The notes beneath the pieces were generated by a model. It was not told the origin of the DNA and ran no database searches. It saw nothing but the letters and a program-made list of their open reading frames with translations. The position numbers and the translations under genes are program-made. From Rhizobium mongolense subsp. loessense (GTDB taxonomy: Bacteria; Pseudomonadota; Alphaproteobacteria; Rhizobiales; Rhizobiaceae): a DNA stretch of 64,000 nucleotides. This document shows, piece by piece, positions 36,175-42,423 of the stretch. Location: assembly GCF_900099775.1 (NCBI RefSeq), contig NZ_FMTM01000001.1, forward strand, positions 930,001 to 994,000. Reading direction: 5' to 3'. Position 1 is the stretch's first letter, and every line of letters starts with the position of its first letter.

Positions 36175-36708
36175 ATGAACTGGACAGACGAGCGTGTCGA
36201 AAAACTCAAGAAGCTTTGGTCCGAAGGATTGAGCGCGAGCCAGATTGCGGCGCAACTCGGCGGAGTGAGCAGGAACGCGGTCATTGGCAAGGTCCACAGG
36301 CTTAGCCTTCCGGGCCGCGCCAAGGCCGGCGGTGCGACGACGACCGCACGCGCACCGAAGCGCAATACTTCGGCTGTCCGCGCGCCGAATTATGCATCGC
36401 GGATCGCGACCCGCACCGTTACGCGCCAGCAGGGCGCGACGATGCTCAAGGAAGAGGTCGAAATCGATCTCATGGAGGAGATGGACTATCGTCCGGCCGC
36501 AAACGTTGTCGTGCCGATCTCCCGTCGTCTGGGTCTGACGGAACTCACGGAGCGTACCTGCAAGTGGCCGGTCGGCGACCCGCTGAAGGACGACTTCCAC
36601 TTCTGCGGCTGCGACAGCCCGGACTCTTCCCCTTACTGCAGCTATCACCAGCGCATGGCCTATCAGCCGGTCAACGAACGCCGCCGGACCGCAGCCCGCG
36701 CAAGCTGA
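36175..36708 (+). CDS. gcrA: GcrA cell-cycle regulator
   Basis: 177 aa. The N-terminal HTH-like region MNWTDERVEKLKKLWSEGLS...QIAAQLGG, SRNAVIGKVHRLSLPGR is the GcrA signature. The C-terminal sigma-70-binding part ends in LTERTCKWPVGDP, FHFCGCDSPDSSPYCSYH with clustered cysteines. GcrA works with sigma-70 at promoters containing GANTC sites methylated by CcrM; its own upstream region is rich in them. Next to argD as in other Rhizobiaceae. Confidence 0.96.
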   Translation: MNWTDERVEKLKKLWSEGLSASQIAAQLGGVSRNAVIGKVHRLSLPGRAKAGGATTTARAPKRNTSAVRAPNYASRIATRTVTRQQGATMLKEEVEIDLMEEMDYRPAANVVVPISRRLGLTELTERTCKWPVGDPLKDDFHFCGCDSPDSSPYCSYHQRMAYQPVNERRRTAARAS

Positions 36709-36730
36709 GCCGGATAAGTAACAAACAAAA

Positions 36731-36756
36731 ACGGGTCCTCGCAGGCCCGTTTTTTT
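36731..36756. terminator. bidirectional intrinsic terminator between gcrA and phoR
   Basis: ACGGG...CCCGT outer stem with an inner CCT/AGG pairing and seven T on the plus strand; the preceding A-rich stretch gives a T-run on the minus strand, so it serves gcrA and the convergent kinase gene. Confidence 0.8.
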
Positions 36757-36817
36757 GCGTCTGGAAATGGAGACCTCGGCCTCAGATCCACCACCAATAT
36801 TCCAGGGATTTACGTCG

Positions 36818-38107
36818 TCAGAAACGAACGGTGAAGTCCGTTCCCTTGCCGATTTCGGACTTGACGATCAGCCGCGCGCGGTGGCGCGTCAGGATATGCT
36901 TTACGATCGCCAGACCGAGACCGGTGCCCTTCTTGGAGCGGCTGTCTTCGATATTGACGCGATAAAAGCGCTCCGTGAGGCGCGGCACATGCTCGGCGGG
37001 GATACCCGGGCCCTTATCTGCGATGCTGACTTCAACCGCCTCGCCGGATGCATTTTTGACACGGACATCGACGACCTTACCCTCCTGGCCGTACTTGCAT
37101 GCATTCTCCATGAGATTTTCAAAAACCTGGACCAGTTCGTCGCGGTCTCCGAGAACCTCCGCCTTGCCTTCCGGCAGGTGCAGATTGATCTCGACGCCAA
37201 CCTCCGTGGCAAGCGGCACCAACGCGTCCCTGACATGTCCGAGCAACGGCACGAGATCGACCTTCTCGTCCGGTGCAATATGCGACTTGAGCTCAAGACG
37301 GGAAAGCGAGAGAAGATCGTCGACAAGGCGGCTCATGCGAGTCGTCTGGTCGAACATGATGCCCAGGAAGCGCTCCTGCGCCTTCGGATCATTCTTTGCC
37401 GGGCCTTGGATGGTCTCGATGAAACCGCGGAGCGACGCAAGCGGAGTCCGCAGCTCATGGCTAGCATTGGCAACAAAATCCGACCGCATGCGATCGATAC
37501 GCCGCACCTCGGAGATATCGCGGAACGAAAGCAGGAAAAAGCGCTCGCCATTTCCGGCACCGCCGAGGTCGATCGGCGCGCTGCGAACAATATAGACGCG
37601 CTCCGACGGCAGGCGCTCGGAATGCTCGATCTGGTTGGGAGCGTTGGTGGCGATCGTCTCTCCCACCATGTCCAGAATGCCCGGCGAGCGCAGGCGCGCA
37701 GAAATATGGGCCCCGATCACCACTTCGCCAAAGGCCTTTTCCGCGGCGCGGTTCTGGAAGAGAACGGAGGCATCGCCTGAGAGGAGCATCACGGGCATAT
37801 CGAGGCCAGCCAGCGTTGCGGAGACGGCGGGCAGCAGACTTGCTGGCGCTTCCGGTTCGACTTCCGGCGGTTCCGCAAGCTTTGCCTGCACGCCCGGCAT
37901 GCTGTTTAGAAGCACAATGGCAATCATTAAAACAAGAAGGCCCAGCACCGCCCACTTGTTCATGCCGGCCGCAAGCGCAACGAGGCCAATGACGATCGCC
38001 GCGAGCAGGACCGTTCGCTGCTGCCGGATGCGGGCCATGAGCCCCGTTGTCCATGGCATTTCGTCTTCCAAGTGTTCCTCGCCCGGTCGGTTCGTTCTTA
38101 TGTTCAA
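36818..38107 (-). CDS. phoR: PhoR-like sensor histidine kinase
   Basis: 429 aa. Two adjacent TM helices (about residues 33-50 and 52-68), a PAS-like region (about 100-200; VMLLSGDASVLFQNRAAEKA), HisKA H-box ASHELRTPLASLRGF (His about 218) and HATPase boxes (N: NLMENACKYG, G1: DKGPGIP, G2: GTGLGLAIVKH). It matches the phosphate-starvation kinase by its position beside ppk2. The phoB, phoU and pst genes expected downstream are missing here; transcription ends at the gcrA terminator. A start at the second Met (MPWTTGL) is possible. Confidence 0.85.
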   Translation of the reverse strand: MNIRTNRPGEEHLEDEMPWTTGLMARIRQQRTVLLAAIVIGLVALAAGMNKWAVLGLLVLMIAIVLLNSMPGVQAKLAEPPEVEPEAPASLLPAVSATLAGLDMPVMLLSGDASVLFQNRAAEKAFGEVVIGAHISARLRSPGILDMVGETIATNAPNQIEHSERLPSERVYIVRSAPIDLGGAGNGERFFLLSFRDISEVRRIDRMRSDFVANASHELRTPLASLRGFIETIQGPAKNDPKAQERFLGIMFDQTTRMSRLVDDLLSLSRLELKSHIAPDEKVDLVPLLGHVRDALVPLATEVGVEINLHLPEGKAEVLGDRDELVQVFENLMENACKYGQEGKVVDVRVKNASGEAVEVSIADKGPGIPAEHVPRLTERFYRVNIEDSRSKKGTGLGLAIVKHILTRHRARLIVKSEIGKGTDFTVRF

Positions 38108-38130
38108 ACTCTGCCTGATAGCCGTGATTC

Positions 38131-38137
38131 ATGACAG
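38131..38137 (-). promoter_or_regulatory. possible Pho-box half-site
   Basis: CTGTCAT on the minus strand in the phoR-ppk2 divergent region. Only one good half-site is visible, so the call is weak. Confidence 0.25.
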
Positions 38138-38269
38138 AAGTTTTCCGCCGCTGCCATCTGCCGTAAAAGCGGCAATCGAAACACACAGGAATTTTGCCTG
38201 CCGCAACGGATTTGATTTTCAATGGAAAATATGATCGCCTGCGAAGAAAGCCACAGGCGGAGAAGGAAT

Positions 38270-39151
38270 ATGGCCGAAGCTGTTGAAAGCCGCGCGGTTG
38301 AACTGGACATCAAGGGCAAGAAGCGCGTCTTCGATGTCGACGATCCGGTGCTTCCGGACTGGATCGATGAAGAGGCGCTGGAATCGGGGGATTTTCCTTA
38401 CAAGAAAAAGCTGAACGAGGAAGAATATCTCGAAGAGCTGGAAAAGCTGCAGATCGAACTGGTCAAAGTGCAGTTCTGGCTGCAGGCGACCGGCAAAAGG
38501 GTGATGGCGCTCTTTGAGGGCCGCGATGCGGCCGGCAAGGGCGGCGCCATCTCGGCCTCCTCCGCCCACATGAACCCGCGCCTTGCCCGCGTCGTCGCAC
38601 TCGCCAAGCCGAATGATCGCGAACTCGGCCAATGGTATTTCCAGCGCTACATCGCCCAGTTTCCGACGGCCGGCGAGTTCGTTCTCTTTGACCGCTCCTG
38701 GTACAACCGCGCAGGTGTCGAACCGGTCATGGGGTTTTGCACGCCCAAGCAATACGAGGATTTTCTCAAGCAGGCGCCGCAGCTGGAAAAGATCATTGCC
38801 CACGAAGGCATTCACTTCTTCAAGTTCTATCTGGATATCGGCCGCGAGATGCAACTCAAGCGCTTCCACGACCGCAGGCACGATCCGCTGAAGGTATGGA
38901 AGCTTTCCTCGATGGATATCGCTGCGCTCACCAAATGGGACGACTACAGCGACAAACGCGAGCGGATGCTCAAGGAGACGCATACGGAATTTGCGCCCTG
39001 GACGGTCATCCGCGCCAACGACAAACGCCGCGCGCGGCTCAACCTCATCCGTCACATGCTGAAGAAAATGGATTACGACGGAAAGGACGACAAGGCGATC
39101 GGCGATCTCGACGACAAGATCATCGGCGCGGGATCCGGCTTTTTGAAATAA
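38270..39151 (+). CDS. ppk2: polyphosphate kinase 2
   Basis: 293 aa from ATG 38270 (GGAGAAGG upstream). Class I PPK2, using polyphosphate to phosphorylate nucleoside diphosphates (GDP/ADP). Walker [10 protein letters not shown], lid and Walker [20 protein letters not shown], and [16 protein letters not shown]...FFKFYLDIG. Close to the SMc02148/Atu0418 type, the enzyme studied in Sinorhizobium and Agrobacterium. Divergent from phoR, consistent with phosphate control. Confidence 0.95.
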
Positions 39152-41901: not shown

Positions 41902-42423
41902 TCAGCGCATCCACTCCCGCGAGCAAGCGACGCGACCTGTTTGATCGCCGTCCAGGGACCTGGCTAAAGCCTCTAATCGGACTGTACCGGTGCCAACAAT
42001 CAGTCCGAATTCTGCCAGATGGCTTCGGATGGCATTAAAGGCCTTCGTTCTCTGCCGGATGAACAATGCACGCGTTTTGATCAAAGCGGTCAGCGCTTGC
42101 TGGTCAGCCGTTTTCACAGGCACAAGGCGCATTCCCTCTTGTCGTGCAGCAACGGCGATGGCCTCAGCGTCGGCCGCGTCCGTCTTGTCTCGTTTGACAA
42201 ATGGCTTGACGTACTGACCGGGTAGGATGATGGCCCTATGCCCCAGTGCTTCGATTTCCCGCGCCCAGTAATGAGCACTGCCGCCTGCTTCCATTGCAAC
42301 GGTGCATGGTGACAATTGCTGTAAGAACGGCTGCACTTCGCTGCGGCGGAGCCTCTTGTTGAAAAGCTTTTTGCCATCGGCGTCCAGACCGTGAACTTGG
42401 AAAACGTTCGTGGCTAAGTCCAA
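41902..42423 (-). pseudogene. IS110/IS1111-family transposase fragment
   Basis: 173 codons of the N-terminal DEDD transposase domain: LDLATNVFQVHGLDADGKKL, VAMEAGGSAHYWAREIEALG, GHRAIILPGQYVKPFVKRDK with TDAADAEAIAVAARQEGMRL, and LIKTRALFIRQRTKAFNAIR. The start is damaged: ATG-GAG then a frame change before LDLATNVF. The C-terminal half (transposase_20 domain, normal total about 340 aa) is missing after LARSLDGDQ. Confidence 0.9.

Follow-up and report, generated by a model that had tools for sequence, protein, structure and literature searches.

In a 64,000-nucleotide stretch of the genome of Rhizobium mongolense subsp. loessense (contig NZ_FMTM01000001.1, positions 930,001 to 994,000; hereafter the window), phoR, the gene of the phosphate-regulon sensor kinase, lies against the cell-cycle regulator gene gcrA, and pstSCAB-phoU-phoB, the operon that the ancestral gene order places between the two, is found on another contig of the same assembly. 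The relocation of the operon away from phoR is strongly supported, and we regard it as a lineage-specific event brought about by acquisition and recombination. The best explanation, to which we give a probability of roughly 0.83, would be the acquisition of a foreign phosphate/phosphonate gene cluster, its recombination with the resident operon and deletion of the latter in place. An additional PhoB-like regulator, which we call PhoBL, came with the cluster; that it tunes the system is more tentative.

The phoR site and the ancestral gene order

Coordinates without a contig label are window positions, and G000 denotes the genome of the window. The left neighbour of the lost operon, gcrA (36175..36708, + strand), encodes a protein that scores 206.7 bits against PF07750 (cut-off 26.9) and stays below the cut-off of the NCBIfam equivalog (154.6 against 280). 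It converges with phoR (36818..38107, - strand), which was left at the ancestral site and whose product exceeds the cut-off of the PhoR equivalog TIGR02966 (357.5 against 334.2 bits). The deletion junction between them measures 109 bp (36709..36817), and blastx of this gap against queries for Pst, PhoU, PhoB and PhoBL found nothing at E <= 1. The canonical rhizobial locus, with pstSCAB-phoU-phoB between phoR and gcrA, is therefore absent here: the gap stands in its place and the operon lies on contig C8. The initial annotation, made from the letters of the window, had correctly pointed out that phoB, phoU and the pst genes were missing at this position. It had also placed the end of phoR at the gcrA terminator; a terminator-like hairpin with a bulged base can indeed be seen by eye at about 36731-36756, inside the gap, and is absent from the list of a simple hairpin scan.

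The ancestral order was traced in 120 genomes of the genus, with PhoR matched at E <= 1e-60 and PhoU at E <= 1e-40. Both proteins are present in all 120, with a single phoR match per genome at that threshold. In 108 genomes phoR and phoU lie on the same contig, 5444-8592 bp apart, so the objection foreseen in the initial annotation, that close relatives might never carry pst genes at this place, does not apply. phoR is split from phoU in five genomes: G000, G310, G292, G332 (R. mongolense USDA 1844) and G316. In three more (G030, G257 and G277) phoU comes straight after phoR with no pst gene between, and the last four (G011, G012, G282 and G296, of which G012 alone was inspected in detail) were left unclassified, with phoR and phoU on different contigs and at least one of them near a contig end or start. 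Loci were fetched from 22 non-split genomes: 18 have the complete ancestral order within a single contig, three lack pst genes between phoR and phoU, and one is cut by a contig end; gcrA adjoins phoB in all 18 one-contig loci mapped. The order given in the initial annotation is the one present in Sinorhizobium meliloti Ak57, which reads ppk2-phoR-pstS-pstC-pstA-(pstB)-phoU-phoB-gcrA, pstB being absent from the gene table and matched by sequence. In Agrobacterium tumefaciens, phoR, the four pst genes, phoU and phoB also share one locus (PMC12501420). Outside the family, phoR-pst-phoU-phoB occurs in 13/13 loci (L040-L052, from Kaistia, Bosea, Beijerinckiaceae and other Hyphomicrobiales), with gcrA next in nine; the order reaches beyond Rhizobiaceae.

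The locus is broken in a second way in G257, G277 and G030 (L076-L078; L099, L100, L101), where phoR-phoU-phoB-gcrA is kept and pstSCAB is gone. The sole PstB found in these genomes lies elsewhere and is of another type, 58-59% identical to native PstB in the two inspected; G285 carries this other type as a second copy (57% to native PstB). Additionally, one stop codon falls within the phoR match in each of G016, G030, G266, G269 and G324, where it may lie in the true coding frame or precede the real start. A 3.7 Mb S. meliloti record named "pSymB" (L114, CP090106.1:574402-590696) carries phoR-pst-gcrA and may be a mislabelled chromosome; its pstB is not listed in the gene table and is matched as two fragments.

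On the other side of phoR, the right neighbour ppk2 (38270..39151, + strand) is unchanged. Its product, polyphosphate kinase 2, reaches 362.7 bits against TIGR03707 (cut-off 301.8) when scanned from the upstream start at 38222; the start at 38270 was picked by eye, from a purine-rich stretch upstream. The divergent intergenic region of phoR and ppk2 (38108..38269) yielded no site in a two-half-site Pho-box scan, nor did its counterpart in G285, the closest relative that keeps the old order. A consensus search of the whole window returned three matches, all outside this region, with 2.51 expected by chance; the consensus used in these scans is what we take to be the Pho box. About 3 kb beyond ppk2 lies an open reading frame (41902-42423, - strand) that presumably resembles the N-terminal part of an IS110-type transposase and is perhaps a truncated insertion sequence.

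The operon at its new site

The initial annotation offered two possibilities, that the operon had moved or that high-affinity phosphate control had been rewired, leaving phoR-ppk2, and proposed a genome-wide search for pstSCAB and phoUB. The search found the complete set on C8, so the operon did move. Outside the window, at G000:C8:482270-489041 (+ strand; L035:4271-11042), PhoU domains, family matches and mapping locate the relocated operon. L035 reads phnE-phnD-phnC on the - strand, then pstS, pstC, pstA, pstB, phoU and phoB on the + strand, followed by PhoBL, with phnC and pstS divergent. The operon holds the sole PstB (E <= 1e-80) and the sole PhoU (E <= 1e-40) of G000, a second PhoU-domain match on C8 being a 556-aa open frame of another kind. 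Family scores exceed their cut-offs for PstC (279.7 against 196.45 bits), PstA (216 against 193.45), PstB (403.4 against 343.2) and PhoU (237.4 against 130.25); PstS, at 170.7 bits, is below its subfamily cut-off of 206.6. With pstS, pstC, pstA, pstB and phoU all in G000, the PstSCAB-PhoU system is whole, and a loss of high-affinity uptake is rejected. The second possibility therefore stands only in part. PhoU and PhoB are intact and group with the same relative (G285) as the genes flanking phoR, and a Pho-box-like site precedes pstS, so control was not lost; "rewired" may still be apt, considering the foreign promoter region and PstSCA and the extra regulator without phosphoacceptor after phoB.

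The distance between the two sites can be read directly in two relatives: phoR and phoU lie on the same contig 1.73 Mb apart in G310 (assembly of 4 contigs) and 1.79 Mb apart in G292 (5 contigs). In G000 (a draft of 32 contigs), G332 and G316, phoR and pst are on different contigs. The flanks of G000 C8:474786-490867 are only 37 bp apart in G285, and this empty site points to a 16.1 kb insertion that carries the relocated operon.

Comparison of the genes shows that the operon is a patchwork, with pstS-pstC-pstA of a plasmid-cluster kind and phoU-phoB native. At the nucleotide level, pstS, pstC and pstA of G000 are 81, 72 and 78% identical to those of an Ensifer adhaerens plasmid, against 58, 57 and 60% to native G285, whereas phoU and phoB are 82 and 80% identical to the plasmid against 88 and 90% to G285; the identity type switches near the pstA/pstB boundary. 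Trees (quick IQ-TREE runs, with Shimodaira-Hasegawa-like approximate likelihood ratio test support given by asterisks) tell the same parts from one another. Flanking genes place ((G000,G332),(G310,G292)) next to G285 (100*), and phoU plus phoB place this clade next to G285 as well (98*). For pstSCA, G332 goes with G285 (100*), and G000, G310 and G292 go with the plasmid clusters and Pararhizobium sp. YC-54 (G339; 100*). The neighbouring phnD is foreign in the clade: its copies there are 96-100% identical to one another, whereas identity falls to 87% with G295 and to 58-68% with the top match of each of the remaining 115 genus genomes. G295 (L111, G295:C98:20001-40000) itself has a foreign-type phn cluster, its PhnD 87% identical to that of G000, and its own phoR-pst locus in place; no pst gene was matched in the 20 kb fetched around this cluster.

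The promoter region is that of the cluster. A two-half-site Pho-box-like site lies about 80 bp before pstS and agrees at 13/14 positions in the four clade members, YC-54, the E. adhaerens pD plasmid and NT-26, and at 12/14 in G316. The consensus search likewise predicts a box before pstS with one mismatch, and 33/200 shuffles of L035 reach two matches; we find the box credible because it recurs at this distance across loci, and not because of its mismatch count. In G332 and G316, PstS is a hybrid, with an upstream region and signal peptide of the cluster type, a mature protein of the Rhizobium type, and the switch at ARDQ. In G316 the upstream region matches the cluster type moderately well, at 62-74% to clusters as opposed to 46-55% to natives, and the S. 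americanum protein line was not used in this junction comparison. Given these hybrids, Rhizobium genes would have recombined into a cluster already in place. The native-type parts of the two operons stem from different Rhizobium branches. G316's trees disagree with one another (flanks with G274/G029/G321, 99*; pstSCA with G028, 99*; phoU plus phoB within G015/G028, 99*), a conflict suggesting that G316 took over its operon from a G028-like relative.

The abandoned sites also differ. The phoR-gcrA junction is homologous in G000, G310, G292 and G332 and different in G316, which argues for at least two independent losses. In the gcrA-phoR gap of YC-54 (L122:1085-1500) there is debris of phoB (2e-18) and of pstC (1.2e-9), the latter closer to the native type; we interpret it as the fossil of an operon deleted in place.

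Similar clusters stand on plasmids elsewhere. In the arsenic islands found on two E. adhaerens plasmids and on those of NT-26 and NT-25, phnCDEE accompanies pstSCAB-phoU-phoB and a second PhoB-like gene, and two S. americanum plasmids (records without annotation) hold pstSCAB-phoU-phoB-PhoBL with no phn match nearby. The clade of G000 has the E. adhaerens layout; G316 has that of NT-26, with phn downstream. Arsenic islands with pst1 and phn1 operons have been described, in strains of which nearly all possess a pst2 or phn2 at a distance as well (PMC3834237). The G000 cluster shares with the islands of these plasmids the neighbourhood of phnCDE and pstSCAB-phoU-phoB and the additional PhoB-like gene, with phnC and pstS divergent as in E. 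adhaerens. However, it is the only pst-phoU set found in its genome, its phoU-phoB are native, and in G310 and G292 it lies on the phoR contig. By lineage and adjacent phn genes, pstSCA of G000, G310 and G292 belong with the plasmid clusters (100*); aio or ars genes were absent among the 10 proteins of the insert and its edges (Pfam), a search that left out small open reading frames and the rest of the genome. Compared with the rhizobial locus of S. meliloti and A. tumefaciens, G000 retains the same seven genes, the pstSCAB-phoU-phoB order, phoR beside ppk2 and a Pho-box-like site before pstS. It differs in that phoR alone remains in place; the other six genes have phnCDE as their neighbours, pstSCA and the promoter region are foreign, and PhoBL has been added. 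A further response regulator stands beside phnC in the islands of NT-26 (L094:19561-20205; 36% to PhoB) and NT-25 (L097:19561-20205).

PhoBL, the additional PhoB-like gene

In G000, PhoBL follows phoB after 16 bp on the same strand. Its product reaches 219.4 bits against the PhoB equivalog TIGR02154, below the cut-off of 296.2 (the scan took PhoBL and not the true PhoB of G000), and we therefore treat it as a PhoB paralogue and not as PhoB. Close copies occur in five of the 120 genus genomes (96-100% in G000, G310, G292 and G332; 79% in G316), and these are exactly the five split ones. In a family sample searched at E <= 1e-64, a cut-off that can miss distant copies such as that of NT-26, PhoBL was found in 3/297 genomes: G000, G113 and G159. 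In G113, G159 and YC-54 phoR adjoins gcrA on another contig than pst-phoUB-PhoBL, so that PhoBL goes with a phoR stranded beside gcrA in 8/8 genomes where both were located, which are not eight independent cases. The link with phn genes is loose: they adjoin pst/PhoBL in 9/14 loci (G000, G310, G292, G332, G316, two E. adhaerens, NT-26 and NT-25) and were not seen in the fetched stretches of YC-54, the two S. americanum, G113 and G159. In the tree, the 13 PhoBL all group together, separate from the 15 PhoB (100/100*), with long branches for NT-26 and G159; this grouping shows a single origin and leads us to reject a local tandem duplication of phoB as their source. The names PhoB1 and PhoB2 are in use in A. 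tumefaciens 5A (Kang et al. 2012, as cited in PMC3834237) and cannot be matched to PhoBL, hence our separate name. In the open-access literature, at the level of titles and abstract openings, we found nothing on point for this relocation or for such a PhoB-like gene in rhizobia.

The receiver domain of PhoBL has lost much of what phosphorylation requires in PhoB. At the phosphoacceptor position (D53), 11 copies have G in five, E in two, N in one and D in three; of two further copies, G113 has D and G159 lacks it (A, in an alignment by eye). The five G belong to all five Rhizobium copies, which also have L instead of T83; at the second acidic position the four clade copies carry Q and G316 carries E. 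K105 is kept in 11/11. The LD[W/L] motif is present in 33/33 PhoB. In G000, PhoBL thus departs from PhoB at D53 (G), the second acid (Q) and T83 (L) and keeps the first acid and K105. By its sequence it is an Asp-less pseudo-receiver, which the E. adhaerens, NT-26 and G113 copies, retaining Asp, are not. PhoB and PhoBL of G000 are identical at 45/124 receiver positions and at 63/103 of the DNA-binding domain.

The DNA-binding domain, on the other hand, is conserved. R193, H198, R201, R203, T217 and R219, which we take to be Pho-box contacts from E. coli PhoB, are invariant in the 11 aligned copies, as are D100, D101, E111 and R115, presumably the dimer face. A structure model of R. mongolense PhoBL (97% identical to that of G000; mean predicted local distance difference test score 86.1, predicted template modelling (TM) score 0.57) shows the OmpR/PhoB fold. 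Its DNA-binding domain matches PhoB on pho-box DNA (1gxp) with a target TM of 0.88-0.90. Whole-protein matches among the 50 listed reach TM 0.38-0.59 with large root-mean-square deviation, because the two domains are set differently; 2hqr, an atypical orphan regulator, and RitR are among the matches listed. Atypical OmpR/PhoB regulators (HP1043, ChxR, GlnR and RitR; reviewed in PMC12632262) share with PhoBL the fold, the lost phosphotransfer residues and the kept DNA-binding domain. Unlike them, PhoBL is a tandem paralogue of an intact PhoB, and the residue at the site varies between copies, being G, N, E or A in some and D, as before, in others.

PhoBL might also be a decaying duplicate of phoB without a function of its own that is simply carried along with the operon. 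The residue losses in the Rhizobium copies would fit such decay, as would the faster change of its receiver compared with that of PhoB. However, no stop interrupts the matched frame in 13/13 copies, and within the clade the ratio of nonsynonymous to synonymous substitution rates is 0-0.04 in the DNA-binding domain, compared with 0.16-0.41 in the receiver (small counts). Together with the six invariant putative contacts, this makes mere decay improbable, though of all the alternatives that we weighed it survives best.

Proposed history and biological meaning

The reading that we prefer starts from a Rhizobium ancestor with the arrangement gcrA> <phoB-phoU-pstBACS-phoR ppk2>. The ancestor of G000, G332, G310 and G292 would have gained a cluster of the Ensifer/Pseudorhizobium plasmid kind, composed of phnCDE, a Pho-box promoter, pstSCAB-phoU-phoB and PhoBL; the two near-complete members have it some 1.75 Mb away from phoR. 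Native phoU-phoB would have entered the cluster through recombination with the resident operon in all four members, and native pstSCAB too in R. mongolense. The resident operon would have been deleted in place, leaving phoR against gcrA. The gene anatomy, the mosaicism, the trees and the empty site belong to the genomes as we find them; the order of the steps we infer. Since PhoR, PhoU and PhoB are still the native set in the clade, PhoR should control the moved operon in trans. PhoBL, right behind phoB, could rise with starvation, and would either hold basal uptake up or compete with phosphorylated PhoB.

How PhoBL acts is a more tentative matter. With somewhat less than even confidence, we propose that it binds Pho boxes as a dimer without phosphorylation, its amount and not PhoR setting the effect, which may be a boost or a damping. 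The E53 copies of S. americanum lean towards constitutive activity; Glu can mimic phosphate in many regulators (PMC12632262). Bolder, and in our opinion rather unlikely, is the idea that PhoBL acts as a partner of PhoB independently of phosphorylation, spreads horizontally together with pst-phoUB and frees the operon from its place beside phoR. It is prompted by the 8/8 cases of stranded phoR and by a phosphoacceptor site replaced by G, N, E and A while the DNA-binding domain stayed fixed. If true, two kinds of subunit would jointly control phosphate at the same boxes: PhoB, which depends on PhoR, and a PhoB-like one that is always on and acts according to its dose. We take the phoCDET genes of S. 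meliloti to be of the phnCDE type. In that species, phoCDET and pstSCAB respond together to phosphate stress (PMC8829014).

Several observations weigh against the preferred reading. For the leftmost 2.5 kb of the insert (C8:474786-477335), the stretches of G310, G292 and G332 that were compared contain no match. A tRNA scan of seven loci found none, no mobile-element family appeared among the 10 proteins of the insert and its edges (Pfam), and direct repeats near the insert ends amounted to overlapping 12-base matches just outside both ends, with no clear end repeat; site-specific integration is left without support by these scans. In pstSCA, even the nearest plasmid clusters reach no more than 71-81% identity, which makes them cousins of the G000 cluster, not its donors. 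The species order ((G000,G332),(G310,G292)) conflicts with pstSCA type and so calls for one or more additional exchanges within the clade. Native phoU-phoB are seen in one clade only, and the operon of G316, while of the Rhizobium type, is by the trees not that genome's own. Finally, co-transcription of PhoBL with pst-phoUB is assumed from strand and spacing.

Of the other histories, plain transposition seems quite improbable. The native operon would have jumped beside a phn cluster, PhoBL would have arisen by tandem duplication of phoB, and G000 would have received its foreign pstSCA later; the grouping of the clade's phoU-phoB with G285 and the native pstSCA of G332 would agree with this. 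Nonetheless, it is already disfavoured by the chimeric PstS of G332 and G316, with its cluster-type upstream region and signal peptide, and neither the separate PhoBL clade, which speaks against local making, nor the foreign phnD is what it would produce. Even less probable is pure xenologous replacement, in which a complete foreign pstSCAB-phoU-phoB-PhoBL arrived and the native operon was deleted without any mixing. The pstSCA of G000, G310 and G292 do group with plasmid clusters, and the same layout exists on two E. adhaerens plasmids, but the phoU-phoB of those very operons group with G285 (98*) and the identity type switches near the pstA/pstB boundary. A wholly foreign operon is rejected for phoU-phoB by this tree, unless the tree is an artefact of strong conservation. 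An assembly artefact, suggested by the draft state of G000 and the separate contigs in G000, G332 and G316, is rejected, as phoR abuts gcrA inside one contig in all five split genomes and G310 and G292 carry both sites on one contig.

Since the order phoR-pst-phoU-phoB extends beyond Rhizobiaceae, its dismantling serves as a natural experiment on what keeps such genes side by side. Foreign transport genes were able to take over in this clade, but PhoU and PhoB, which must work with PhoR, remained native; it is this mosaic, together with PhoBL, that makes the relocation of interest. The tandem PhoB/PhoBL pair, moreover, allows the loss of the phosphoacceptor to be traced through copies with D, E, N, A and G. 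The switching of pseudo-receiver regulators is called a mystery in a 2025 review (PMC12632262), and PhoBL offers such a regulator that can be tested against a well-understood partner and promoter.

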